This document shows positions 5,452-17,160 of a DNA stretch of 64,000 nt, one piece after another. Position 1 is the first letter of the stretch. Each line of letters begins with the position of its first letter. Location of the stretch: contig CAMORU010000002.1 of assembly GCA_946624155.1 (NCBI GenBank), positions 1 to 64,000 of the forward strand, given 5' to 3'. The position numbers and the translations under genes were made by a program. Under the pieces are notes generated by a model. It was given only the letters and a program-made list of their open reading frames with translations. It was not told the origin of the DNA and searched no databases. The stretch comes from an uncultured Caryophanales bacterium. GTDB taxonomy: Bacteria > Bacillota_I > Bacilli_A > RFN20 > CAG-826.

Positions 5452-6276
5452 TTATTCGAGGTTTACTTTGCTAGAAAGATAGTAATGATATTGTTTTTCT
5501 TCACAATATTTTTTGATGTCATTTTTAAGACTTAAATCGGTGGTGTATTCTAATAAGAATACTTCTTTATTTTTATTTTTCATCATTTGAGCAATCTTTT
5601 TATAATAATTTTGGTTTTCTTTATCTTGTTTAGCGAATATATCATGCTCATAATTTGTAATTAAAGAGAAAACTTCTTCTTGGTGATAACCCCAAACATA
5701 ATTAAAAACATTATCTTTATTATCGTTTGAGTCGTCAAAGTATTCAGCGCCGCCATTAACCATAACTTTTAATCCAAGTTTATTTACTCTATTCATTACA
5801 CTTTTAAGGGAGTTGGCAAAATCTTGATAATTTAATCCTTCCTCTTTTGCAATAGAGTAAACATCGACATTATCAATGTAAACTCCAAAAGCGCCTTTGT
5901 TTTTATACTTTTTTGCAAGTGAAACAACTAAATTTTGCCAAGATTTGTTAGTAACATCGATCCATCTTTCATCAGGCCAATTGTGATAATCTTTGAATGT
6001 CAAATCTTTGAATTCTTCATAATAATCACGATAATTTTCCAATGAACCGACATTTAAATAAGCTAAGCAATTAGTGCCATTTTTTGTTAATTTTTCAATA
6101 TTTGATTTAGAAAATTCATCAATCTCTAACGCTACATATTTGTAATTAATAAAACTTTTAATGTTATTATTAGTTCTTCCTAAAAATGCTCCATAATCAT
6201 TCGAAGTAAAACTAGTCTTTGAATTACAACTCACTAAAGTAAATGCAGTGATTAATGAGATAGCAATTTTTTTCAT
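5452..6276 (-). CDS. Lipoprotein with GH114-like (endo-polygalactosaminidase/TM1410) domain
   Basis: 274 aa from the preferred start. It begins MKKIAISLITAFTLVSC: a signal peptide with lipobox LVSC and lipidated Cys17. An upstream ATG at 6297 adds seven residues before the signal but lies upstream of the -10 box, so it is rejected. The body resembles TIM-barrel proteins of the GH114/TM1410 group: CLAYLNVGSLENYR, RWIDVTN, GAFGVYIDNVDVY, GLKVMVNGGAEYF. Members include alpha-1,4-polygalactosaminidases that cut exopolysaccharide. Predicted cell-surface glycan hydrolase; the substrate is an inference. Confidence 0.8.
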   Translation of the reverse strand: MKKIAISLITAFTLVSCNSKTSFTSNDYGAFLGRTNNNIKSFINYKYVALEIDEFSKSNIEKLTKNGTNCLAYLNVGSLENYRDYYEEFKDLTFKDYHNWPDERWIDVTNKSWQNLVVSLAKKYKNKGAFGVYIDNVDVYSIAKEEGLNYQDFANSLKSVMNRVNKLGLKVMVNGGAEYFDDSNDNKDNVFNYVWGYHQEEVFSLITNYEHDIFAKQDKENQNYYKKIAQMMKNKNKEVFLLEYTTDLSLKNDIKKYCEEKQYHYYLSSKVNLE

Positions 6277-6285
6277 ACTAATAAA

Positions 6286-6291
6286 ATTGTA
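6286..6291 (-). promoter_or_regulatory. -10 box of the GH114-like lipoprotein gene
   Basis: TACAAT on the minus strand, 9 bases before the ATG at 6276. There is no Shine-Dalgarno, which fits a nearly leaderless mRNA. Confidence 0.55.
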
Positions 6292-6345
6292 TCGCAAATG
6301 AAAGTTGGGATGAATTTTTAAAAATAAAAGAGTAACCTATTTAGT

Positions 6346-7101
6346 ATGAAGATACTTTTAGTAGATGATGAACAACTTCAATTAATCAGATTAGAAAAAG
6401 CTTGTAGGGCTGTTATACCTAGTGCTGATTATTTTATTTTTACAAATCCGGTTAAAGCACTTGAAGAAAGTGAAAAAACCAAATTTGATGTTGCGTTTTT
6501 GGATATTGAAATGCCATCAATCAAAGGGATTCAACTTGCTAAAAAATTAAAGAAAAATAATCCTCTTTTAAGTGTTATTTTTGTAACAGCCTATACCGAC
6601 TATGCTTTACAAGCTTTTAATATTCATGCTTCAGGTTACATTACTAAGCCTGTTAACGAAGCAAAAATTAAAGAAGAAATTGAAAATCTTAAAAACATTT
6701 CTCCTTTACCGACCACTAAAAAATTACAAGTTAAATGCTTCGGTAATTTTGAAGTATTTTGTAAAGGAGAACCAGTTAAATTCTCTTATAAAAAGTCTAA
6801 AGAAGTTTTCGCCTATCTTATAGATAGAGAAGGCTCTGCAATTAATATTAATGAGCTTAATGCAGTTTTATGGGAGGAAGATCACCCTTCATATTTACGA
6901 AACTTAATTGCAGATATTCAAAAAACTTTAAAATCACTTGATTGTGAGGATGTTTTCGTTAAACGCCATAACGAATGTTATATTGATGTTGATAAAGTTG
7001 ATTGCGATGCTTACGAATATAAAAAAGATAATCCAAACGCTGTAAGACTTTATCGAGGCGAATACATGATGCAATATTCATGGCCAATATTTGATGAATA
7101 A
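6346..7101 (+). CDS. Response regulator, receiver plus SARP-like winged-helix domain
   Basis: 251 aa. Residues 1-120 form a receiver domain with the acidic pair Asp7-Asp8, phospho-acceptor Asp53 (FLDIEMPS), the VTAY switch Thr and a conserved Lys in ITKP. Residues 125-250 (LQVKCFGNFEVFCKGEPV onward) resemble the OmpR/SARP-type DNA-binding winged helix used by regulators such as BTAD/SARP proteins. No histidine kinase gene is next to it, so its partner is elsewhere. It is first gene of the putative peptide locus, 23 bases upstream of the HipA-like gene, and probably regulates the locus. Confidence 0.88.
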   Translation: MKILLVDDEQLQLIRLEKACRAVIPSADYFIFTNPVKALEESEKTKFDVAFLDIEMPSIKGIQLAKKLKKNNPLLSVIFVTAYTDYALQAFNIHASGYITKPVNEAKIKEEIENLKNISPLPTTKKLQVKCFGNFEVFCKGEPVKFSYKKSKEVFAYLIDREGSAININELNAVLWEEDHPSYLRNLIADIQKTLKSLDCEDVFVKRHNECYIDVDKVDCDAYEYKKDNPNAVRLYRGEYMMQYSWPIFDE

Positions 7102-7109
7102 AAATAGAT

Positions 7110-7115
7110 TAGAAT
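7110..7115 (+). promoter_or_regulatory. Possible -10 box of the HipA-like kinase gene
   Basis: TAGAAT between the response regulator stop and the HipA-like ATG, 9 bases before the ATG. No Shine-Dalgarno is visible. Confidence 0.4.
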
Positions 7116-7124
7116 TTATTTAAA

Positions 7125-8324
7125 ATGTCTGAAATTGAAAGAACAAATAAGCTTATTTTGATGTTTAAGAATTATGAAGTTCTTTCTTTTTCATATGAAT
7201 CAGAACCTAAACGAGTTGTTCATATAATAGAAAAATTAGAGCATTTTGATAAAGCTCCTTTTGGAGTTTTGCATCCACTTTATGACGAGGATACCGCACT
7301 TTTGAAATTTTTCAATTCAAGATCTATTGCACCTCAAAGATATGATTACGATGAAATTCTTAAAGCTACTAATAGTAAGAATGGATTTGAACTATCTTTT
7401 AAAGGACACGGCTTATCTTTAACAAACCATTATTGGTTTAAAAAAGAGGGTGAAAAATTAAAATACGAAGATATAAATTTCTTTACTAACAAGTGGGATG
7501 ATTCCTTTGGAAGAGCGGTGTTAAATAAAGATTATGAGAAACTAACAAATTGTGATTTAAATGTTCCTGATATTGTTACTAATGGTTGGGCAGTAAAAGG
7601 ATGGATTTGGGATAATGGTCCAAAGCTTTATAAATTTTCTAGAGATAAAAATAGCAGCGCAGAAGCTCTTGGTGAAGTTTTAGGTTCAAGACTTGCTAGA
7701 AGAATATTTCCAGATGATCAAGTTCTGCATTATGAACTTAAAAAAATTGGAAATAATTATGCTTCAGCAGCACCTGTACTTATTGGAATTGATGAAGAAT
7801 TAGTTCCGCTTTCAAATTATTTTAAGTCTGATGTTTTTCACACTTATTTAAAAAGATTTAATAATAGAGAAGTCCAAAATGAATTTTTTAAACTAATAGA
7901 GCACTCTAATATTCCAGGAATTAAAGAATTTTTCATTAAAATTACATGTGTTAGACACTTATGTTTCATTTCCGATTTACATTTTGATAACATTTCTATT
8001 ATTAAAAATAATAAAACAGGAAAACTAAGAATGTCTCCTTTATACGATTTAGCAGGAGCTTTCGGGACTTCTCAGTCAGGAAGAAAGTTTGTTTCTAACA
8101 TTAATAAAGGAACATATCTAGTACTTTTCTATGTCTTTAATGAGCTAAATCCTGATTGGGATTATTCTTGGTATGACCCAAAACGACTTGATGGTTTCGA
8201 GAATGAAATAATCGAAATATTAACAAAATCAGAATTTTATACACCTGAATTATTAGATAGAATAATAAATGTTTACCGCTACCAAAAGGAAACGTTAGAT
8301 AAGATAGCAAAAAAGATTAACTAA
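7125..8324 (+). CDS. HipA-like serine/threonine kinase
   Basis: 399 aa. The C-terminal half carries the HipA kinase signature: SDLHFDNISII (Asp284, Asn289) followed by LRMSPLYDLAGAFG (Asp308), aligning with the catalytic Asp, Asn and metal-binding Asp of E. coli HipA. KLYKFSRD...EALGEVLGSRLARR (about 167-193) looks like the ATP-site Lys/Glu region. The N-terminal 120 residues are not recognised. There is no HipB-like antitoxin beside it, so a classical toxin-antitoxin pair is unlikely. It sits directly upstream of a RiPP-type precursor and radical SAM maturase; it may modify the precursor, or act in signalling. Kinase fold likely, target unknown. Confidence 0.75.
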   Translation: MSEIERTNKLILMFKNYEVLSFSYESEPKRVVHIIEKLEHFDKAPFGVLHPLYDEDTALLKFFNSRSIAPQRYDYDEILKATNSKNGFELSFKGHGLSLTNHYWFKKEGEKLKYEDINFFTNKWDDSFGRAVLNKDYEKLTNCDLNVPDIVTNGWAVKGWIWDNGPKLYKFSRDKNSSAEALGEVLGSRLARRIFPDDQVLHYELKKIGNNYASAAPVLIGIDEELVPLSNYFKSDVFHTYLKRFNNREVQNEFFKLIEHSNIPGIKEFFIKITCVRHLCFISDLHFDNISIIKNNKTGKLRMSPLYDLAGAFGTSQSGRKFVSNINKGTYLVLFYVFNELNPDWDYSWYDPKRLDGFENEIIEILTKSEFYTPELLDRIINVYRYQKETLDKIAKKIN

Positions 8325-8330
8325 CTGTGA

Positions 8331-8340
8331 CACATTTGTG
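8331..8340. promoter_or_regulatory. Inverted repeat CACATTTGTG in the precursor promoter
   Basis: Dyad CACA-TT-TGTG at the -35 position relative to the TAGAAT at 8354. The same ten bases occur at 1090-1099. Possible operator. Confidence 0.35.
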
Positions 8341-8350
8341 GCAGATGCTT

Positions 8351-8359
8351 TGATAGAAT
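8351..8359 (+). promoter_or_regulatory. Extended -10 promoter of the precursor gene
   Basis: TGATAGAAT: extended TG plus TAGAAT (5 of 6 to consensus), 22 bases upstream of the ATG at 8382. Confidence 0.55.
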
Positions 8360-8381
8360 ACATTCAGGATTGGAATTGATT

Positions 8382-8585
8382 ATGAGGAAAGAATTGTTAA
8401 AAGGTTTAACTGAGGAACAAATAATTAAAGTGCAACAATGTAGCGATGTTCGTGATTTAATGCAACTTGCTAAAGATGAAGGTGTTGAATTAAATGATGA
8501 GCAACTAAAAGCTGTATCAGGTGGCGCTTGTTCTAGTGAAACAGATAAAGAAGATTCAGCGCATAATAGAAAAATTGAAAGTTAA
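8382..8585 (+). CDS. RiPP-type peptide precursor with double-glycine leader
   Basis: 67 aa from ATG 8382; a TTG at 8370 would add four residues but has no ribosome-binding site. Residues 1-48 form a Nif11/NHLP-like acidic helical leader (LTEEQI, LMQLAKDEGVELNDEQLKAVSGG) ending in Gly47-Gly48, the cut site of C39 peptidases; such a peptidase is encoded in the exporter downstream. The predicted core is ACSSETDKEDSAHNRKIES: one Cys, five Ser, one Thr, strongly charged and with no hydrophobic stretch. The radical SAM gene starts two bases later. Precursor role is well supported; the modification is unknown. Confidence 0.82.
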   Translation: MRKELLKGLTEEQIIKVQQCSDVRDLMQLAKDEGVELNDEQLKAVSGGACSSETDKEDSAHNRKIES

Positions 8586-8587
8586 TA

Positions 8588-9982
8588 ATGTTTTTCCGTT
8601 TAAAAGATAATGTTGCATTAAGAAAATGGAGATATGTTGATCGTTCAATTTATAAAAAAGGCATCGATCAAGCTCTTGGGGTTTCAAAGGAAGAATTTGA
8701 AATCCTTTTGCTATGCGATGGAGAACACGATTTAGAAAATAACAAAATAATTCAAGAATTAAAAAATAGAAACCTCATTGAAGAATGTAACAAAGGCGAT
8801 AAGTTAAATGAATGGTCCAAGTTAAAGGAGTATGATAACTACTATTTTCCACGTATGAATCTAATGATTACTGGAAAATGTAATCTTAATTGTTTGCATT
8901 GTTTCAATGCAAAAGATAACGCTCCACTAAATTCCGAACTCTCTTTTGAAGAAATTTTAAATATCTTAGATCAAGCAAAAGAGATTGGCATTCATTGTTT
9001 TACATTAACTGGTGGTGAGCCATTAGTTCATCGTAAATTTTTAGATATTGTAAAAGCTATTTATGAAAGAAATATGTTCATTTTTGAGCTTAACACTAAT
9101 GGCTTACTAATTAACCAAAAGATGCTTGATTTCTTTAAAGAAATAGGTTGCTATCCTTTAATAAAAATTTCTTATGATGGAATTGGTTATCATAACTGGA
9201 TTAGACAACATCCTAAAGCTGAAGAACTTACTTTAAAAGCTATTGAATTATGCATCAAAAATGGCTTCAGAGTGAAAGCCCAAGTTCAAGTTAATCGTAA
9301 GAATTTGAATTCGATGTTTGATACCGCAAAACTACTTGATAAGATGGGCGTTGATGAGATGAGAATTATAAGAACAACTGAAGCTCCTCGATGGGAAAAG
9401 AACGCACCTCAATCATCTTTAACAATTGAAGAATATTACGAAAATATGCTGGATTTTGCGGCAAAATTCATGAAATCTGGGATGAAAATGACTGTTGATG
9501 TTTGGCAGTTTTTACGAATTTATCCAAGGCACAAACTTTACTCACTTGTACCTATTTCTTGTAATAAAGATGAATTTAATATTCGTATTCCAATGTGTAA
9601 AGGTAACCGCGGAATGATCGCTGTTTCTTCAAAAGGAGAAGTTGTTCCATGCTTACAAATGTCTGGTTACTTTTTGGAAAAAGGTATCAGTTTAGGAAAT
9701 TTGTTTAAAACGCCTTTAAAAGAATTAGTGAAAAATAGTCCCTATCTAGATTTAGCAATGGCGCCATTATTTAAACAAATTATTGAGAATGATAAATGTG
9801 GTAATTGTAAATACTACAAAGCCTGTACCGGTGGTTGCCCTGCTTTGGGCTTATTATATTCTAAAGATATTAATTTCTACCATGAAGATATTACTAAATG
9901 CATTTTCTTTGAAAATGGTTGGTATGAAAAAGTTACAGAAACTTTAAAAGATTTTCATTTACAAAATCCTTTAAATATTTAG
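8588..9982 (+). CDS. Radical SAM/SPASM peptide maturase
   Basis: 464 aa. Residues 1-85 look like a PqqD-type leader-recognition region (GVSKEEFEILLLCDGEHDL...NRNLIEE). The radical SAM cluster motif CNLNCLHC has Cys98, Cys102 and Cys105, followed by TLTGGEPL. The C-terminal SPASM region has further cluster cysteines (MCKGNRG, VPCLQMSG, CGNCKYYKACTGGCPALG, KCIFF). Enzymes of this build install crosslinks or epimerise residues in ribosomal peptides. It lies two bases after the precursor and ends in a terminator, so the two form one unit. Reaction type cannot be read from sequence. Confidence 0.93.
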   Translation: MFFRLKDNVALRKWRYVDRSIYKKGIDQALGVSKEEFEILLLCDGEHDLENNKIIQELKNRNLIEECNKGDKLNEWSKLKEYDNYYFPRMNLMITGKCNLNCLHCFNAKDNAPLNSELSFEEILNILDQAKEIGIHCFTLTGGEPLVHRKFLDIVKAIYERNMFIFELNTNGLLINQKMLDFFKEIGCYPLIKISYDGIGYHNWIRQHPKAEELTLKAIELCIKNGFRVKAQVQVNRKNLNSMFDTAKLLDKMGVDEMRIIRTTEAPRWEKNAPQSSLTIEEYYENMLDFAAKFMKSGMKMTVDVWQFLRIYPRHKLYSLVPISCNKDEFNIRIPMCKGNRGMIAVSSKGEVVPCLQMSGYFLEKGISLGNLFKTPLKELVKNSPYLDLAMAPLFKQIIENDKCGNCKYYKACTGGCPALGLLYSKDINFYHEDITKCIFFENGWYEKVTETLKDFHLQNPLNI

Positions 9983-9999
9983 AATTTTCTTTCTTTGAC

Positions 10000-10030
10000 A
10001 ATGCCAGCAAATTGAGTTTGGCATTTTTTA
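10000..10030 (+). terminator. Terminator of the precursor/radical SAM operon
   Basis: Stem AATGCCA / TGGCATT with a 12-base loop, followed by TTTTTA. Confidence 0.75.
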
Positions 10031-10057
10031 TTTAGATTGTGTTTTACGCAATCTAAA
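10031..10057. promoter_or_regulatory. Inverted repeat overlapping the exporter promoter
   Basis: Arms TTTAGATTG (10031-10039) and CAATCTAAA (10049-10057) are perfect, and two further inner pairs are possible. The dyad covers the -35 region of the promoter driving the export genes. Likely a regulator-binding site; the response regulator at 6346 is a candidate. Confidence 0.55.
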
Positions 10058-10070
10058 TTAATGATATAAT
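10043..10070 (+). promoter_or_regulatory. Promoter of the HlyD/ABC export operon
   Basis: TTTACG (10043-10048), 16-base spacer, extended -10 TGATATAAT (TATAAT 10065-10070). The ATG at 10078 follows after only 7 bases, with no Shine-Dalgarno, so the mRNA is predicted leaderless. Confidence 0.7.
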
Positions 10071-10077
10071 CATTATT

Positions 10078-10458
10078 ATGAAAAAGAATAAAGTTAGCAT
10101 CTCTAATCCAGAAGAACTAGAAAAAAAATTGCAATATTCTTCTCCAGTTACATGGATTGCTTTAGGAGTTGTCTTTTCTCTTATTGTGGGCCTTTTTGTA
10201 TGGTCTTGTGTTTTTAGAATTAAAGACAAAATTATAGGCAAAGCGAAAATTGTCAGTTCTGAAGTTACTCTTGTGGTTGACGCTAATTCTATTTCTAAAT
10301 TAAAGGTTGGCCAAAAAGTTTATATTAATAATTTAGAAGGCGAAATCTTAAAAATTGTTGAGAAAAAGCCTATTATTTCTCATTTTGCATTGGCTGATGG
10401 AGAGTACGAATACACCATTATTAATGAAATTAAACCAATAGAATACTTGATCAAATAA
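10078..10458 (+). CDS. Very small HlyD-like membrane fusion protein
   Basis: 126 aa, one membrane segment at about 23-46 (WIALGVVFSLIVGLFVW) and a short outside part with a lipoyl/barrel-like stretch (IVSSEVTLVVDANSISKLKVGQKVYI). Membrane fusion proteins of NHLP export clusters are normally about 400 aa with a coiled-coil hairpin, and that hairpin is missing here. Its position immediately before two NHLP-type exporters supports an accessory export role. It is the first gene behind its own promoter; the next gene starts two bases after its stop. Confidence 0.7.
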   Translation: MKKNKVSISNPEELEKKLQYSSPVTWIALGVVFSLIVGLFVWSCVFRIKDKIIGKAKIVSSEVTLVVDANSISKLKVGQKVYINNLEGEILKIVEKKPIISHFALADGEYEYTIINEIKPIEYLIK

Positions 10459-10460
10459 TT

Positions 10461-12635
10461 ATGGAAAAGGTAAAGAAACCAAAGACTAAAGGCAAGGGAG
10501 TTGCAAATACTCCGTTAATCATGCAATTAGAAGCTCTAGAATGTGGAGCGGCTTCTTTAACAATGGTTATGGCTTACTATGGAAAGTGGGTGCCTCTTGA
10601 ACAAGTTAGAGTTGATTGTGGTGTTTCTAGAAACGGAAGTAACGCTAAGAATATTCTTAGAGCAGCTCAAAAATATGGGTTTAAAACATCAGGTTATGCT
10701 TACAATATTCAAAAATTAAAAGAAAGAGGCAAATTTCCAGCGATCATTCACTGGGGTGGAGGCCACTTTGTTGTTTTAAATGGTTTTAGGGGTAATAAAG
10801 CAATTATTAATGACCCAGCTAAAGGACTTGTTAAAGTCGATTTGAAGACTTTTGATAAAATATTTACAGGAATTTATCTAGAACTTGTTCCAGATGAAAA
10901 TTTTGTTCCTAGTGGAAAAAGAAAATCAATTTTCTCATTTGCTAAGAAACGTCTTAAAGGCGCTTTGCCATTAATTATCTTCTTTTCAATTACGACAATT
11001 ATTTTCTATGTTTTTAGTATTATTTCGCCTGCTATGAGCCAAGTTTTTGTCGATAAACTTTTAGGTGGGCAAAACCCATCATGGCTATTGCCATTTATCC
11101 TAGTATTTGCAAGTGTAGCTTTGCTACAAGTCGTTGTAACAATAATTCAGAGCATATCGCAATATAAGATTCGAGGCAAACTAGATTTAATTGGTTCAAC
11201 AACTTATATGTGGAGAATTTTAAGACTCCCTATTGAATTCTTCTCACAAAGAATGGTTGGAGATTTGCAAGGACGTCAATCTGAAAATGCATCAATTGCA
11301 GAAACATTGGTTAATGTTTTCGCTCCTTTATTATTTAACACAATTATGATTGTTGTTTATCTGTTTGTAATGATTAATAAGAGCTGGATTTTATCTCTTG
11401 TGGGAGTAATAACAGTCCTTATAAATATCTTTGTGTCGACAAGAATTTCTAAAGTCAGGGTTAATATTTCTCGTGTTCAAGCTAGAGATAATGCAAGACT
11501 TTCTGGCATGACTTCAAAAGGCATTGAAATGGTCGAAACAATTAAATCAAATGGTGCTGAGCAAGCTTATTTTGAATCTTGGTCTGATGTTCAAAACGAT
11601 GTTGTTAAAGGAAAACTTAGAATGTCGAAAATAAATGCATCACTAGGTTTAATTCCTTCATTTGCTGCAATGCTTGCGAACTATTCAATATTAATTCTTG
11701 GTGTTTTCTTCACCATTAAAGGTGAATTCACAATCGGTTCAATTTTAGCTTTCCAAGGTTTACTTGGTTCATTTATGCAACCTGTTAACACTCTTATTTC
11801 AAGTGGTCAAACATTACAAGAAATGAGAACAATGATGGAAAGAGTGGATGATGTTTTGGAATATCCTTTAGATGAAAATGTTATTCGCGAAATCAAGACT
11901 GACAATGTTTCAAAAATTAAAGGTAACCTCATTTTGAAAGATATAACTTTTGGTTATTCTAGACTAGACGAACCAATTTTAAAGAATTTTAATCTGGAAA
12001 TAAAACAAGGACAAAAGGTTGCAATTGTTGGTTCAACAGGAAGCGGAAAATCAACATTGTCAAAATTAATTTCAGGTTTATATTCACCTTGGTCAGGAGA
12101 AATTATTTTTAATGGCAAGAAGATTACTGAAATTGATCACGAAATTTTTACTTCATCAATTGCAGTTGTTGATCAAGATATAACAATGTATGAAGACACA
12201 ATTTTAAATAATATTAAAATGTGGGATGAATCTATTGAAGATTACGAAGTAATAATGGCATGTAATGATGCTCAAATACATAAACAAATCATGGCAAGAG
12301 AAGGTGGTTATAATGCTCCAGTTTTAGAAGGCGGCAAAAACTTCTCTGGTGGTGAGAAACAAAGACTTGAGATTGCTCGTTCTTTAGCTTCTGATCCAAG
12401 CATCATCATCTTAGATGAAGCTACAAGTGCGTTAGACGCTAAAACAGAATCTGAAGTTGTTAAAGCAATTAAAGCTCGTGGCATCACAACAATTGTTATT
12501 GCTCATAGATTATCTACTATTAGGGATGCTGATTTGATTGTTGTCCTTAATAAGGGCGTAATTGTGGAGCAAGGAACTCACGAAGAATTAATGAAAAATA
12601 AAAGTTCATATTATGAACTTGTTACAAATGATTAG
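10461..12635 (+). CDS. NHLP-type peptidase/permease/ATPase exporter with C39 domain
   Basis: 724 aa. Residues 15-145 are a C39 peptidase with Gln22, catalytic Cys28 (LECGAASL), His102 (WGGGHFVV) and Asp118 (INDPAKG). Six membrane segments follow at roughly 165-450, then an ABC ATPase with VGSTGSGKST, FSGGEKQR and IIILDEATSALD. It should cut the leader after Gly-Gly and export the core peptide. This architecture matches ABC1 of NHLP/NHLM bacteriocin systems. The precursor ending its leader in Gly-Gly upstream is the natural substrate. All catalytic residues are present. Confidence 0.95.
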   Translation: MEKVKKPKTKGKGVANTPLIMQLEALECGAASLTMVMAYYGKWVPLEQVRVDCGVSRNGSNAKNILRAAQKYGFKTSGYAYNIQKLKERGKFPAIIHWGGGHFVVLNGFRGNKAIINDPAKGLVKVDLKTFDKIFTGIYLELVPDENFVPSGKRKSIFSFAKKRLKGALPLIIFFSITTIIFYVFSIISPAMSQVFVDKLLGGQNPSWLLPFILVFASVALLQVVVTIIQSISQYKIRGKLDLIGSTTYMWRILRLPIEFFSQRMVGDLQGRQSENASIAETLVNVFAPLLFNTIMIVVYLFVMINKSWILSLVGVITVLINIFVSTRISKVRVNISRVQARDNARLSGMTSKGIEMVETIKSNGAEQAYFESWSDVQNDVVKGKLRMSKINASLGLIPSFAAMLANYSILILGVFFTIKGEFTIGSILAFQGLLGSFMQPVNTLISSGQTLQEMRTMMERVDDVLEYPLDENVIREIKTDNVSKIKGNLILKDITFGYSRLDEPILKNFNLEIKQGQKVAIVGSTGSGKSTLSKLISGLYSPWSGEIIFNGKKITEIDHEIFTSSIAVVDQDITMYEDTILNNIKMWDESIEDYEVIMACNDAQIHKQIMAREGGYNAPVLEGGKNFSGGEKQRLEIARSLASDPSIIILDEATSALDAKTESEVVKAIKARGITTIVIAHRLSTIRDADLIVVLNKGVIVEQGTHEELMKNKSSYYELVTND

Positions 12636-12647
12636 AAAGGAGTAAAC

Positions 12648-14828
12648 ATGGGTTGGTTTGAAGAGCAAGTAAAACAAAGAAAAGAACTCGATGCAAAAAC
12701 ATTCGAAGAATCTTTCATGTCGCTTGCTGGATTAAAAGTCGATAATAAAGAAAGTTTGACTGACGAACAAATAAAAGATAACTTTGTTATTAGTCAAATA
12801 CTTTCATATTTCAACCATCAACCTATTGATATTCCAAAGTCTATTGATAATTTTGAAGATAAATTAAATTATGTTATTTCACAAACGGATTTCGTTTATA
12901 GAAAGATCAATTTAGATAAATCTTATTCCGACAATAACAAGTTTCCAATCCTTATTTTTGTCCCATTTAATAACTCTCCAGTTTTACTTTTCCCTAAAGG
13001 AAAGGATAAATACTATTATATAAATTACGCGACAGGAAAAAGAGCTACTATTGATTCTTATTTAGTGAACGGACTAGAACTTGAAGCATATACTTTCTAT
13101 CGTCCACTTCCAAAATCAAAAATTTCATTTAAAGGCTACGCTTCTTACTTAAAGAAATCGGTTAAACCATTGGATTTAATTTTGCTTATTTTGTTTACAA
13201 TTGCCGCCTCTGGTGTCGGACTTTTAATTCCTTATCTCACTAAGAGATTGACTGGTGAAGTTGTTAGCAAAGGTGAAATCCCATTCTTTATTTTAATTTC
13301 AAGTTTTGTCGTAGCCGCCGCAACAGGTTTACTATTAGTAAAAGCGGTTCAGTCTTTCATCAATATTAAAGTTTCAACTAAGATTGAGAAATCTATTCAA
13401 GAAGCCACAATGATGAGAGTTTTATCTCTCCCAGCCTCTTTCTTTAAGAAACATAATACCGGTGAACTTGGCTTAAGATTTAGCAATGTAGTTTATTTAG
13501 CAAGATTAATCATTGCAGGAATGTTTACAACGCTAACTTCGGTTATTATGTCTTTTGCTTATGTATTCCAATTAATTGGTTTTGCTCCATCCTTAATTTG
13601 GCCTGTTGTACTTATTTTATTTGTAAACACAAGTTTTACAATTTTAATTTCTTTTATTCAGAAAGAATTTGCTAAAAAACAACTTGAACTAAGCGCTAAA
13701 GAAGCTGGTGTTACTTATGAAATGATTAATGGCATCCAAAAGATTAGACTTTCTGGAAGCGAAAAACGTATTTTTGCAAAATGGGCTAGTGCTTATTCTA
13801 AGAGTGCAAAACTTAAATACAATCCTCCTATGATTTTAAAACTTAGTGGAGCATTGTCCTTATTAATTTCATTATTGGGTACTCTACTTATTTATTTTGT
13901 GGCTGCCAAAAACAACATTGATGCAAGTAGTTACATGGCATTTATGTCTAGCTATGGTGTTTTATCTGCTGCTTTTGCATCTTTATCTCAAGTTGCTAGT
14001 ACCTTATTTACAATTCAACCAATTTATGAAATGGCTCGCCCAATTTTGGAAAGTGAACCTGAATCTAATGAAGGAAAAATTGAACTTAAACACATTACTG
14101 GAAATATCACAATTAAAGATGTCTCCTTTAGATACACTGAAACTGGTCCACTTATTATAAATAAGTTTAATTTAGACATTAAAGAAGGCGAATATCTTGC
14201 AATAGTTGGTCAAACAGGTTGTGGTAAATCTACATTGGTGAGACTTTTACTTGGTTTCGAAAAACCTATAAATGGTGAAGTATTATATGATAATATAAAC
14301 ATTAATGATGTTAATTTAACTTCATTAAGAAAGAATATTGGTACTGTTATGCAAAACGGAACTTTATTCCATGCTGATATTCTTTCTAACATCATTATTT
14401 CTAACCCAAGTCTAAAAAACGAAGATGCTTGGGAAGCAGCGGAGATTGCTAATATTGCCGAAGATATTAGAGAAATGCCAATGGGAATGAGAACTGTTAT
14501 ATCGGAAGGTCAAGGTGGTATCTCTGGTGGTCAAAAACAAAGGATTATGATTGCTAGAGCAATCGTCCATAAACCTAAAATTCTCATCTTTGATGAGGCA
14601 ACATCCGCTTTAGATAATAAAACCCAAAAATCTATTTCAGATTCAATCAGCAAACTCAATTGTACACGTATTGTAATCGCGCATAGACTATCAACAATTA
14701 AAAATGCTGATCGAATTATTATGCTTGAGGGTGGCAAAATTATAGAGCAAGGAGATTATAAAACTTTGATTGCTAAAAATGGCAAGTTTGCCGAACTTGT
14801 TGAAAGACAAAGACTTGATACTAATTAG
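12648..14828 (+). CDS. NHLP-type bacteriocin exporter permease/ATPase (ABC2)
   Basis: 726 aa. An N-terminal ~150-residue domain without C39 catalytic residues, then a six-helix permease (about 170-450) and an ATPase with VGQTGCGKST, ISGGQKQR and ILIFDEATSALD. This is the second transporter that accompanies the C39-containing one in NHLP/NHLM systems; the two probably act together as a heterodimer or in series. A GGAG Shine-Dalgarno (aaaGGAGtaaacATG) precedes the start, 12 bases after ABC1. Confidence 0.93.
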   Translation: MGWFEEQVKQRKELDAKTFEESFMSLAGLKVDNKESLTDEQIKDNFVISQILSYFNHQPIDIPKSIDNFEDKLNYVISQTDFVYRKINLDKSYSDNNKFPILIFVPFNNSPVLLFPKGKDKYYYINYATGKRATIDSYLVNGLELEAYTFYRPLPKSKISFKGYASYLKKSVKPLDLILLILFTIAASGVGLLIPYLTKRLTGEVVSKGEIPFFILISSFVVAAATGLLLVKAVQSFINIKVSTKIEKSIQEATMMRVLSLPASFFKKHNTGELGLRFSNVVYLARLIIAGMFTTLTSVIMSFAYVFQLIGFAPSLIWPVVLILFVNTSFTILISFIQKEFAKKQLELSAKEAGVTYEMINGIQKIRLSGSEKRIFAKWASAYSKSAKLKYNPPMILKLSGALSLLISLLGTLLIYFVAAKNNIDASSYMAFMSSYGVLSAAFASLSQVASTLFTIQPIYEMARPILESEPESNEGKIELKHITGNITIKDVSFRYTETGPLIINKFNLDIKEGEYLAIVGQTGCGKSTLVRLLLGFEKPINGEVLYDNININDVNLTSLRKNIGTVMQNGTLFHADILSNIIISNPSLKNEDAWEAAEIANIAEDIREMPMGMRTVISEGQGGISGGQKQRIMIARAIVHKPKILIFDEATSALDNKTQKSISDSISKLNCTRIVIAHRLSTIKNADRIIMLEGGKIIEQGDYKTLIAKNGKFAELVERQRLDTN

Positions 14829-14842
14829 TGGAGGCTAATAAA

Positions 14843-15130
14843 ATGAAACATAGTTTAGAAAAAGATGTACTTACACTCTTCTTAGAAGGAGAACTTAATT
14901 CTTTTAATTCTGAAGATGTTGAGAAAGAAATTGAAGAAATACTTAAAACAAATTCCTTTAAATCAATTGTTTTGGATTTAAAAGATTTGACTTATATTTC
15001 ATCTGCTGGTCTTAGAATAATTATTAGACTTAAACAACAATGTGATAATACTTCAATTATTCATACTCCAAAGGATGTTTTAAATATTTTTAAAATGGTA
15101 GGTTTTACTAGTATTTTAAAAATTGATTAA
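14843..15130 (+). CDS. STAS-domain anti-sigma factor antagonist-like protein
   Basis: 95 aa from ATG 14843; the in-frame GTG at 14828 overlaps the previous stop, while GGAGG (14830-14834) is spaced correctly for the ATG. The SpoIIAA/RsbV motif DLKDLTYISSAGLR has the Ser-Ser where these proteins are phosphorylated. In partner switching the phosphorylated form is inactive and a PP2C phosphatase releases it. The next gene, two bases on, encodes exactly such a phosphatase fused to a RsbW-like kinase. No sigma factor is nearby. Confidence 0.9.
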   Translation: MKHSLEKDVLTLFLEGELNSFNSEDVEKEIEEILKTNSFKSIVLDLKDLTYISSAGLRIIIRLKQQCDNTSIIHTPKDVLNIFKMVGFTSILKID

Positions 15131-15132
15131 TT

Positions 15133-16989
15133 ATGGTTTCAAAAGAAAGACAATTTATTGACGCTTATCATGATAATGAAGCAGATGCCAATAGGCATAT
15201 GTCTTTTGTTAATGCAGCTGCTGGTATTTTAGCTTTAATTATTTGGGCTTTGTATTTAGCAAGAGTATTTACAATTCCTGATCATTTTTTCCCAGTTGTC
15301 ATGATTTTATTCCCTACAGCAGCAGTATTGTTATTTGTACCACTTTTTCTTGTGAAAACTGATCTTGTAAGAAGACCTGCTTATAAATATTTTATAATAT
15401 TCTCACTTTTAGCTGTTGTTATTGCATTAAATATATCAATTCCAAAACATTCTCTTTTATTCTGGCCATTTATTATTTTGATCGCGAATCACTATTACAA
15501 TCCTACGCTAGGGCGTGTAGTTTATGTTGTGACTATTGTTGCAATGCTTATTTGCATGTATTTAGGCATGTTTTTTGGTGAATTTGATGAAAACTTGTTT
15601 GGTGGTGGTGTCATTTTAAAAGATGGTACAATCGGAACAGTTGAAACATTTGCTGAACGAAAAGAGCTTTTAGCTCAACTTGCTAAAAACGGAAATAACC
15701 GTTACATTAAAGCTCTTATTTTCTATTATTTCCCTAGAGCGATGATTGTTACGTTGTTCTTTATGGTAAGTAATCTTTTAAATAAAAGAACATATAAACT
15801 TCTTGATGCTGAAATTAGAGCTCACGATGAACAAGAAAAAGCAAAAACAGAGCTAGAAGTTGCTAAAGGTATCCAACTAAATACACTTCCAGGTGAATTT
15901 GCGTCTAATGACGGTGTAGAAATCTTAGGCGAACTAAGAGCCGCAAAAGAAGTTGGTGGAGATCTTTATGATTATGTTGATATTGATAAAGACCACGTCG
16001 CTATTTTAATTGGAGATGTTTCTGGTAAAGGCGTTCCTGCTGCTATGTTTATGATGAAGACAATCACTTCATTTAGAGACTTTGCAACTAAAGGAAAAAG
16101 CCCATCCGAAATTCTTAAAGCAGTTAATAAATCAATTTTTAAAGGAAATACTGACTTCATGTTTGTAACTTGTTTTCTTGCTATTTTAGACAAAATAACA
16201 GGTAAACTTGTTTATGCAAATGCAGGTCATAATCCACCTATTATTGGTTCAAATAAAAATTATAAATTTTTAAATAGTAAACCGGGTTTAATTTTAGGCT
16301 GTTTTGAAAATTCAAATGTTGTTGATGACGAAATTATTTTAAAACCAGGTGAGACTATTACTTTATATACTGACGGAATTACTGAAGCAAAAAATGGAGA
16401 AGGAAAACTATTTGGTGAAAGTAGATTCCTTAATGTTTTTAATGAGAAAAACTACACGTGCACAATTGAGCTCCATAGTCAGATTAAAGATGAAATTGCA
16501 GAATTTGTTAAAGATGCACCTCAAAGTGACGATATAACAATTTTAACATTAAGATATAAAGGTGATAATTTACAATACGATCAAAAACATTTTGAAGCCA
16601 AAAAAGAAAATACCGTCGATATTCTTGGCTTCATTAAAGATTTCTCTGCAAGACATAATTTTTCAGGCGAATTTACAAATAAACTTTTGATAGTTGGTGA
16701 CGAACTTGCCTCAAATATCATCAACCACGGTTATAAAAATAACGGTGGACCAATCTTTATTCGTTTACTTTTTAACGAAGATAAAAAAGAATTTGTGTTA
16801 ACAATTATCGATAGTGCTGTTGAATTTAATCAATTAGAGGTTGAGGACACCCCAATTTCTGGTGAAGCTAAAAAACAAAAAATTGGCGGACTTGGTTTAC
16901 TAATTGTTAAAAACATTATGGATGAATATTCTTATCAAAGAGTGAACAATAAGAACATCTTGGTCTTAAAGAAAACCTTTAATGAATAG
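15133..16989 (+). CDS. Membrane SpoIIE/RsbU phosphatase fused to RsbW-like HATPase
   Basis: 618 aa. Residues 1-220 contain about five or six membrane segments plus an extracytoplasmic loop. About 245-475 is a SpoIIE-type PP2C phosphatase (GGDLYDY, IGDVSGKGVPAAMFM, DGITEAKN, SDDITIL metal-binding Asp residues). About 485-615 is a GHKL ATPase like RsbW/SpoIIAB (DELASNIINHG N-box, IIDSA, IGGLGLLIVKNI G-box). One protein may therefore both phosphorylate and dephosphorylate the STAS partner in response to an outside signal. It is last gene of the export operon and ends before a terminator. Confidence 0.92.
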   Translation: MVSKERQFIDAYHDNEADANRHMSFVNAAAGILALIIWALYLARVFTIPDHFFPVVMILFPTAAVLLFVPLFLVKTDLVRRPAYKYFIIFSLLAVVIALNISIPKHSLLFWPFIILIANHYYNPTLGRVVYVVTIVAMLICMYLGMFFGEFDENLFGGGVILKDGTIGTVETFAERKELLAQLAKNGNNRYIKALIFYYFPRAMIVTLFFMVSNLLNKRTYKLLDAEIRAHDEQEKAKTELEVAKGIQLNTLPGEFASNDGVEILGELRAAKEVGGDLYDYVDIDKDHVAILIGDVSGKGVPAAMFMMKTITSFRDFATKGKSPSEILKAVNKSIFKGNTDFMFVTCFLAILDKITGKLVYANAGHNPPIIGSNKNYKFLNSKPGLILGCFENSNVVDDEIILKPGETITLYTDGITEAKNGEGKLFGESRFLNVFNEKNYTCTIELHSQIKDEIAEFVKDAPQSDDITILTLRYKGDNLQYDQKHFEAKKENTVDILGFIKDFSARHNFSGEFTNKLLIVGDELASNIINHGYKNNGGPIFIRLLFNEDKKEFVLTIIDSAVEFNQLEVEDTPISGEAKKQKIGGLGLLIVKNIMDEYSYQRVNNKNILVLKKTFNE

Positions 16990-17069: not shown

Positions 17070-17160
17070 TGGCGGAGTAGGCGAGGTTCGAACTCGCGCA
17101 CCAGTTACCCGGTCTAACGGTTTAGCAAACCGTCCCCTTGAGCCTCTTGGGTACTACTCC
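17070..17160 (-). tRNA. tRNA-Ser (anticodon GCU)
   Basis: 91 nt including an encoded CCA. Acceptor GGAGTAG pairs with CTACTCC; there is a long variable arm typical of Ser tRNA (GACCGGG...), the anticodon loop is TTTGCTAAA, and the T loop is GTTCGAA. It reads AGC/AGU codons. Confidence 0.95.

Follow-up and report, generated by a model that had tools for sequence, protein, structure and literature searches.

A 64,000-nucleotide stretch from an uncultured Caryophanales bacterium (GCA_946624155.1, contig CAMORU010000002.1, positions 1 to 64,000 of the forward strand; hereafter the window) carries nine consecutive genes at 6346..16989 (+). We read them, with a probability of about 0.65, as the core locus of a two-component-controlled regulon for the secretion of ribosomally synthesised and post-translationally modified peptides (RiPPs), with a HipA-fold kinase and a partner switch as accessories. 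According to this reading, a histidine kinase (HK), which stands beside the response regulator (RR) in many relatives, would phosphorylate the RR. The RR would bind paired TGTGRCA heptamers standing in place of the −35 box and activate the promoters of many double-glycine (GG) precursors; HipA, the exporter or STAS would be further targets in some genomes, as would genes whose products are putatively secreted or membrane-bound. One radical SAM (rSAM)/SPASM enzyme would mature the precursors, perhaps at a shared Cys near the cleavage site, and a C39 ABC1/ABC2 exporter would cut the leader and secrete the peptides. The HipA-fold kinase may phosphorylate the precursors or another pathway component, while STAS and SpoIIE/HATPase proteins, joined in some relatives by a STAS-APH kinase, may form a partner switch that tunes the same output and has no sigma factor in the locus.

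Open reading frame (ORF) calling and domain searches of the window's proteins recovered all nine same-strand ORFs (Table 1), which an earlier note on this DNA (the original prediction) had described as one block. The components it had named were also found, namely a GG-leader precursor, an rSAM/SPASM maturase with a CX3CX2C motif and a SPASM domain, and C39/ABC1 and ABC2 exporter subunits, the former with both peptidase and ABC domains. As it had further claimed, no sigma factor appeared among the family matches of the block proteins in general domain and family profile scans.

Table 1 Features of the block and of its intergenic regions, with the supporting matches.
Feature	Position	Strand	Support or remark
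Response regulator, receiver + C-terminal winged-helix-like, SARP-like region, 251 aa	6346..7101	+	PF00072 4e-22
HipA-fold kinase, 399 aa	7125..8324	+	AlphaFold mean pLDDT 90; Foldseek to HipA 7e-10
Direct-repeat box TGTGACA-CATT-TGTGGCA, proposed RR binding site	8326..8343	+	upstream of precursor
−10 element TAGAAT	8354..8359	+	10 bp after box
RiPP-like precursor, 67 aa, GG leader, core ACSSETDKEDSAHNRKIES	8382..8585	+	ORF opens TTG 8370
Radical SAM/SPASM maturase, CNLNCLHC	8588..9982	+	PF04055 1.5e-21, PF13186 4e-8
Terminator-like hairpin, then T6	10000..10025	+	weak: z −0.17, folds no better than shuffles
Palindrome TTAGATTG-N9-CAATCTAA	10032..10056	+	between rSAM and HlyD
TATAAT	10065-10070	+	3' of palindrome, before HlyD
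Truncated HlyD-like membrane protein, 126 aa	10078..10458	+	TIGR03794 positions 2-64 of 421, E 4e-6
C39 peptidase/ABC exporter (ABC1), catalytic-Cys motif ECG present	10461..12635	+	TIGR03796 1.8e-252, PF03412 5e-32, PF00005 2e-31
ABC2 exporter subunit	12648..14828	+	TIGR03797 1.9e-193
STAS protein, phosphosite-like SSAGL	14843..15130	+	PF01740 1.7e-13; ORF opens GTG 14828
Membrane SpoIIE phosphatase fused to HATPase_c_2 kinase	15133..16989	+	PF07228 1e-51, PF13581 2e-19

For comparison, we used 224 genomes of one Bacilli family, 33 of which have an rSAM match at E ≤ 1e-60 and are termed rSAM-positive. Mapping of these 33 loci placed ABC2 in 29, of which 24 have STAS as the next gene downstream; SpoIIE was linked in 21 loci, HipA in 20, the RR in 15 and the HK in 8. 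These counts are lower bounds, because contig ends truncate many of the loci. The SpoIIE count includes fragments of about 150 aa in genomes G088 and G076, a gene cut by the contig end in G086 and one upstream of HipA in G079. The HipA-like, STAS and SpoIIE genes are thus recurrent neighbours of the cassette, rather than absent from its surroundings in all relatives. Since gene order is kept in divergent relatives, the arrangement is more than a chance adjacency of nine genes, an explanation that we rejected on this ground. Judged by sequence, the block is a conserved unit whose genes belong together. The window's genes are matched at 92-100% by locus L037 (Bacilli MAG, metagenome-assembled genome, UBA7029), and the nearest genome in the family set is G001 (62% complete). 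At the same threshold, rSAM relatives occurred in 4/395 genomes of the class and 4/392 of the phylum, the same four in both cases and all from the window's family. L043 (a MAG titled Ruminococcus) has a rearranged, distant version that comprises an exporter, several GG precursors and a relative of HipA; by eye, a variant repeat, TGTTGCA-N4-TGTAGCA, precedes both HipA and the first of the precursors.

The original prediction had put exporters and STAS/SpoIIE genes in one transcript. A single transcript for the whole block is unlikely, because a box and a −10 element precede the precursor (8326-8359) and a hairpin, a palindrome and a TATAAT lie between the rSAM and HlyD genes. The hairpin was absent from the list of the terminator scan, and a promoter scan of the block returned 60 sites against 58.8 expected, which is uninformative alone. 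The palindrome, with arms spaced by 7-10 nucleotides, was seen in 8/224 family genomes, one copy each and always upstream of HlyD; its arms are perfect while the spacing varies, which is odd for a dimer site.

The window's precursor most likely starts at ATG 8382, and after the GG motif it has the 19-residue core that had been described. The Nif11-like leader model TIGR03798 gave no match to it at E ≤ 0.1, and the precursor of the relative L040 scored 19.6 bits against a cut-off of 32.3. Two kinds of core were distinguished among relatives: a short one, AC[ST]...RK[IFY][ED]S with one Cys, and a zinc-ribbon-like one with CxxC pairs. Among the best 120 of 182 precursor matches, the core is no longer than 26 residues in 116; within these listed matches, Cys stands at position 2 in 112, exactly one Cys is present in 113, Ser/Thr stands at position 3 in 102 and Glu/Asp at position −2 in 93. 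The short cores end in a basic-hydrophobic-acidic-Ser tail after a variable hydrophilic spacer. A short-type precursor was found in 23/33 rSAM-positive genomes, of which only the best-scoring loci were translated, and directly before the rSAM gene in 18/33 loci. Altogether, 412 precursor matches were found in 38 of 51 chosen genomes, with up to 31 in one. In L049 (G015) a TAG codon breaks the rSAM gene, and the rest of the cassette appears intact.

Upstream regions had a direct repeat in common, TGTGRCR-N4-TGTGRCR. Across the family set, this box occurs in 434 copies in 74/224 genomes, compared to 6 copies (counted by eye) of the reversed pattern, and it is present in 30/33 rSAM-positive but only 44/191 rSAM-negative genomes (Fisher 8e-14). 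We compared 21 of these 44 box-containing rSAM-negative genomes with nine box-free genomes, uncorrected for relatedness, and found the RR in 17/21 and 0/9, respectively (Fisher 5e-5); the distribution of the box therefore follows the RR. In 98/118 distinct boxes a TANNNT element stands exactly 10 bp after the box (30 at the next best offset), and a TG extension accompanies it. Such a layout, with two repeats separated by one helical turn and a set distance to the −10 element, is that of SARP-type promoters; the RR would be the protein that binds the box.

The 118 boxes come from loci biased towards the system, and the following shares are not genome-wide. A leader hidden Markov model placed 66 boxes before GG-leader precursors, and one further box-preceded precursor was visible by eye. 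Another 33 boxes stand before long ORFs whose N-terminus is hydrophobic, among them one HlyD, and blastp on the box targets identified four HipA proteins, two HlyD proteins (both short, similar proteins) and one STAS protein. Precursor, HipA, exporter and STAS genes have thus each been seen under the box in some genome; no box was seen before an RR among the targets examined. Box number and precursor matches correlate over the 51 chosen genomes (Spearman 0.71). The window has one perfect copy, and only the precursor, with the rSAM gene behind it, carries it.

The C-terminal part of the RR, which we take by eye to resemble SARP regulators, gave Foldseek matches to OmpR/PhoB-type regulators, with a model of low confidence in that part; a Pfam search detected no BTAD domain in the RR. 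An HK adjoins the RR in 16/17 RR-bearing rSAM-negative genomes and in 6/15 cassette loci that include the RR; in L038, for example, the gene upstream of the RR encodes a PF06580 histidine kinase. The box distribution, the promoter geometry and the HK-RR pairing all point to two-component control, and several observations weigh against it as an account of the whole locus. HipA, RR or SpoIIE are not adjacent to every cassette. Perfect boxes were found upstream of 12/23 translated short precursors and were missing from the stretch checked in 11/23; in the window, none precedes the HipA, exporter or STAS genes. Genomes G079, G115 and G194 have the rSAM gene without a perfect box, and boxes but no RR were found in G102, G162, G202 and G087. 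The DNA-binding part of the RR is poorly modelled, and Pfam Trans_reg_C matched just 1/12 RR members (E 0.096). Finally, no HK was found beside the RR in the window, and the best HK match in G001, at 62% completeness, reaches 31%.

The alternative that survives best holds that the peptides are effectors only, bacteriocins or metal-binding, and that none is a signal. It is compatible with a two-component-controlled secretion regulon, and we rate it at somewhat less than even odds. In its favour, many cores are zinc-ribbon-like with CxxC pairs, and the sensor region of the HK does not track the cassette (see below). The short core, however, shows unusually strong conservation at its two ends and has next to no hydrophobic residues, in which it differs from most bacteriocins.

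A stronger form of the regulon reading, which we regard as possible but doubtful, is quorum sensing as in the Blp/Com systems: the short single-Cys peptide would be a pheromone sensed by the HK, the RR box would provide autoinduction and the zinc-ribbon peptides would be the effectors. The nearly invariant Cys 2 (112/116 of the listed short cores) and the conserved tail around a variable spacer are in line with this, as are the frequency of the short precursor in rSAM-positive genomes (23/33) and the box upstream of about half of these (12/23). Genome G011 would resemble a receiver-only strain, as it keeps the RR, STAS, STAS-APH and SpoIIE genes, and an HK elsewhere, without the cassette. Three in-order ABC2 fragments (E 6e-22 to 5e-5) lie between its RR and STAS genes (L046 2950-3250), and we therefore conclude that the cassette was lost there; its STAS-APH is 72% identical to that of G008. 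On the other hand, HK-RR-box systems were found where neither ABC1 nor rSAM was detected, for instance in G005, G024, G206 and G224. In addition, we compared the HK sensor region of ten cassette-positive genomes with that of ten genomes without rSAM and ABC1, leaving out G002, G010, G011, G093, G186, G193 and G196. Similarity was 55.1% within the cassette-positive group, 54.9% between the groups and 58.6% within the cassette-less group. Co-evolution of the sensor region with the cassette was not found among these 20 genomes, and the roughly equal similarity in all three groupings lends no support to a cassette-specific ligand. The HK may instead respond to a cue that relatives without the cassette have in common. 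The fullest version is speculative and in our judgement improbable. In it, the short AC[ST]...RK[IFY][ED]S peptide would represent a pheromone class of a new kind: the rSAM enzyme would close it at the almost unvarying Cys, the HipA-fold kinase would phosphorylate it, and the product would switch on the secretion of tens of zinc-ribbon RiPPs while STAS/SpoIIE gates the response.

The STAS protein, whose start we read as ATG 14843, scores 55.5 against a cut-off of 53.45 for TIGR00377. The SpoIIE/HATPase protein encoded behind it has five hydrophobic segments by hydropathy, as well as phosphatase and N-box motifs. The SpoIIE, HATPase and STAS motifs of a partner switch are thus intact, whereas a cognate sigma factor was absent from the locus in the family scans of the block proteins. 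Eight loci have a STAS-APH fusion between STAS and SpoIIE, which the window lacks; the one that was tested is TIGR02172- and PF01636-like. The original prediction had suggested that the exported peptide may be a signal read by the membrane SpoIIE/HATPase protein; in such a model, this protein would set the phosphorylation of STAS. Strongly conserved ends, as the short core has them, would fit a signal. The membrane N-terminus, the intact phosphatase, kinase and phosphosite motifs and the adjacency of STAS to ABC2 in 24/29 loci speak for this model, but we consider it very unlikely. Related STAS/SpoIIE modules occur with no exporter nearby (L046, L052, L055) and in genomes that yielded no exporter (e.g. 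G011, G033, G149), and in G149 the order is HK-RR-STAS-SpoIIE with no cassette between and no ABC1 in the genome. The HK is the likelier sensor, because it stands beside the RR in many relatives. Only G093, G162 and G196 have ABC1 among the 30 genomes tested for the RR. The rarity of ABC1, the loss in G011 and the layout of G149 thus indicate that HK-RR and STAS/SpoIIE are more widespread than the peptide cassette. In L108 (G088) and L118 (G076), STAS and a SpoIIE fragment directly follow the rSAM gene and the exporters are missing there; these genomes have 31 and 25 precursor matches, respectively.

The HipA fold of the kinase at the front of the block is supported by its structural model, for which the Foldseek match to HipA spans the length of the model, although HipA_C is weak in the window protein (PF07804 E 0.0012; 19 bits, below the cut-off of 30.5). 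A profile match to CtkA (6.9e-9) was also obtained. Among the best 120 of 227 matches used in the HipA search, D284, H286, N289 and D308 are invariant in 40/40 aligned sequences and K170 in 39/39, so that the HipA fold and the catalytic D/N/D residues are both present. Strong matches (E ≤ 1e-138) occur in 4/59 relatives, all among the five with an exporter, and any match at E ≤ 0.001 in 10/59. That this is an ordinary toxin-antitoxin kinase sitting in the locus by chance is highly improbable despite the full HipA fold with catalytic residues, as no HipB-like or HTH domain matched among the 10 block-region proteins scanned (ORFs of at least 60 aa), the kinase is found in 20/33 cassette loci and under the same box in four cases, and in G008 the gene is separate from the cassette yet adjoins a zinc-ribbon precursor. 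Most likely, it acts as a dedicated accessory that would phosphorylate precursors or a pathway component.

The exporter subunits fall below the NHLP cut-offs (TIGR03796, 839.6 against 853.3 bits; TIGR03797, 644.7 against 709.4 bits), and the HlyD-like protein is indeed minimal, as had been noted. Rfam at gathering scores identified two tRNAs in the window and nothing else; a tRNA-Ser(gct) gene on the minus strand (17070-17160) directly follows the block. On the other side, a divergent GH114-like gene (5452-6297), lipoprotein-like by eye, adjoins the RR and occupies the place where some relatives have a histidine kinase. AbiEii-like nucleotidyltransferase genes or pieces lie near the cassette or HipA in L048, L051, L100, L103, L109, L115 and L138, in the last of these right after a box.

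Among known systems, the locus appears to work most like streptococcal Blp, with putative peptide sensing by the HK; we do not claim membership. The Blp/Com systems (BlpABC-RH) share two-component control of many GG peptides via direct-repeat promoters and a C39-type exporter, and relatives of the window have both an HK-RR pair (the HK not being in the window) and the box upstream of GG peptide genes. The RR of Blp/Com carries a LytTR region, whereas the RR region here is SARP-like, and rSAM maturation, zinc-ribbon cores, the HipA kinase and STAS/SpoIIE are further differences. According to the available text of PMC5295010, about 70-80% of sequenced pneumococcal isolates are without a working Blp exporter. 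With NHLP/Nif11 RiPP systems, as described in the available part of PMC2887384, the locus shares (Nif11-like) GG leaders, NHLP-type ABC1/ABC2 and a HlyD-like protein, but it differs in its sub-threshold TIGR03796/TIGR03797 scores, truncated HlyD and regulon control; the main text of that paper, in the part available, makes no mention of radical SAM, two-component systems, quorum or SpoIIE. SARP regulators such as AfsR bind direct repeats of heptamers at an 11-bp spacing, close to the −10 and over the place of the −35 element (PMC10936776, PMC10972967); in published SARP promoters the spacing is 11 or 22 bp, and 8 bp separate the repeats from the −10 element (PMC10936776). Here, in contrast, the protein is receiver-fused, without a BTAD match, in Bacilli, and the distance is 10 bp. 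Phosphatase, kinase and STAS substrate recall RsbU/RsbW/RsbV-type partner switches (PMC11619594, available text), but here phosphatase and kinase form one membrane protein, there is no local sigma factor and STAS-APH joins in some relatives. The kinase shares fold and catalytic residues with HipA/CtkA and differs in that no HipB was seen and in its tie to RiPP cassettes. In a literature search of partial coverage, we found no paper joining a HipA-like kinase with RiPPs, or HipA, RiPP and radical SAM, none with three of NHLP, SpoIIE, STAS and radical SAM, and none with Nif11 and a zinc ribbon; the main text of a rumen bacteriocin survey, in its available part, does not name NHLP, Nif11 or SpoIIE (PMC13289728).

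Taken together, the system looks like a variant of known peptide-secretion circuits, with the HipA-fold kinase and a second phosphorylation switch as unusual members. Through its DNA signature, hundreds of peptides predicted to be secreted by uncultured bacteria of the gut and rumen can be tied to one regulator. It also places a HipA kinase and a partner switch without sigma factor in a peptide pathway, so that the role of each becomes testable there.

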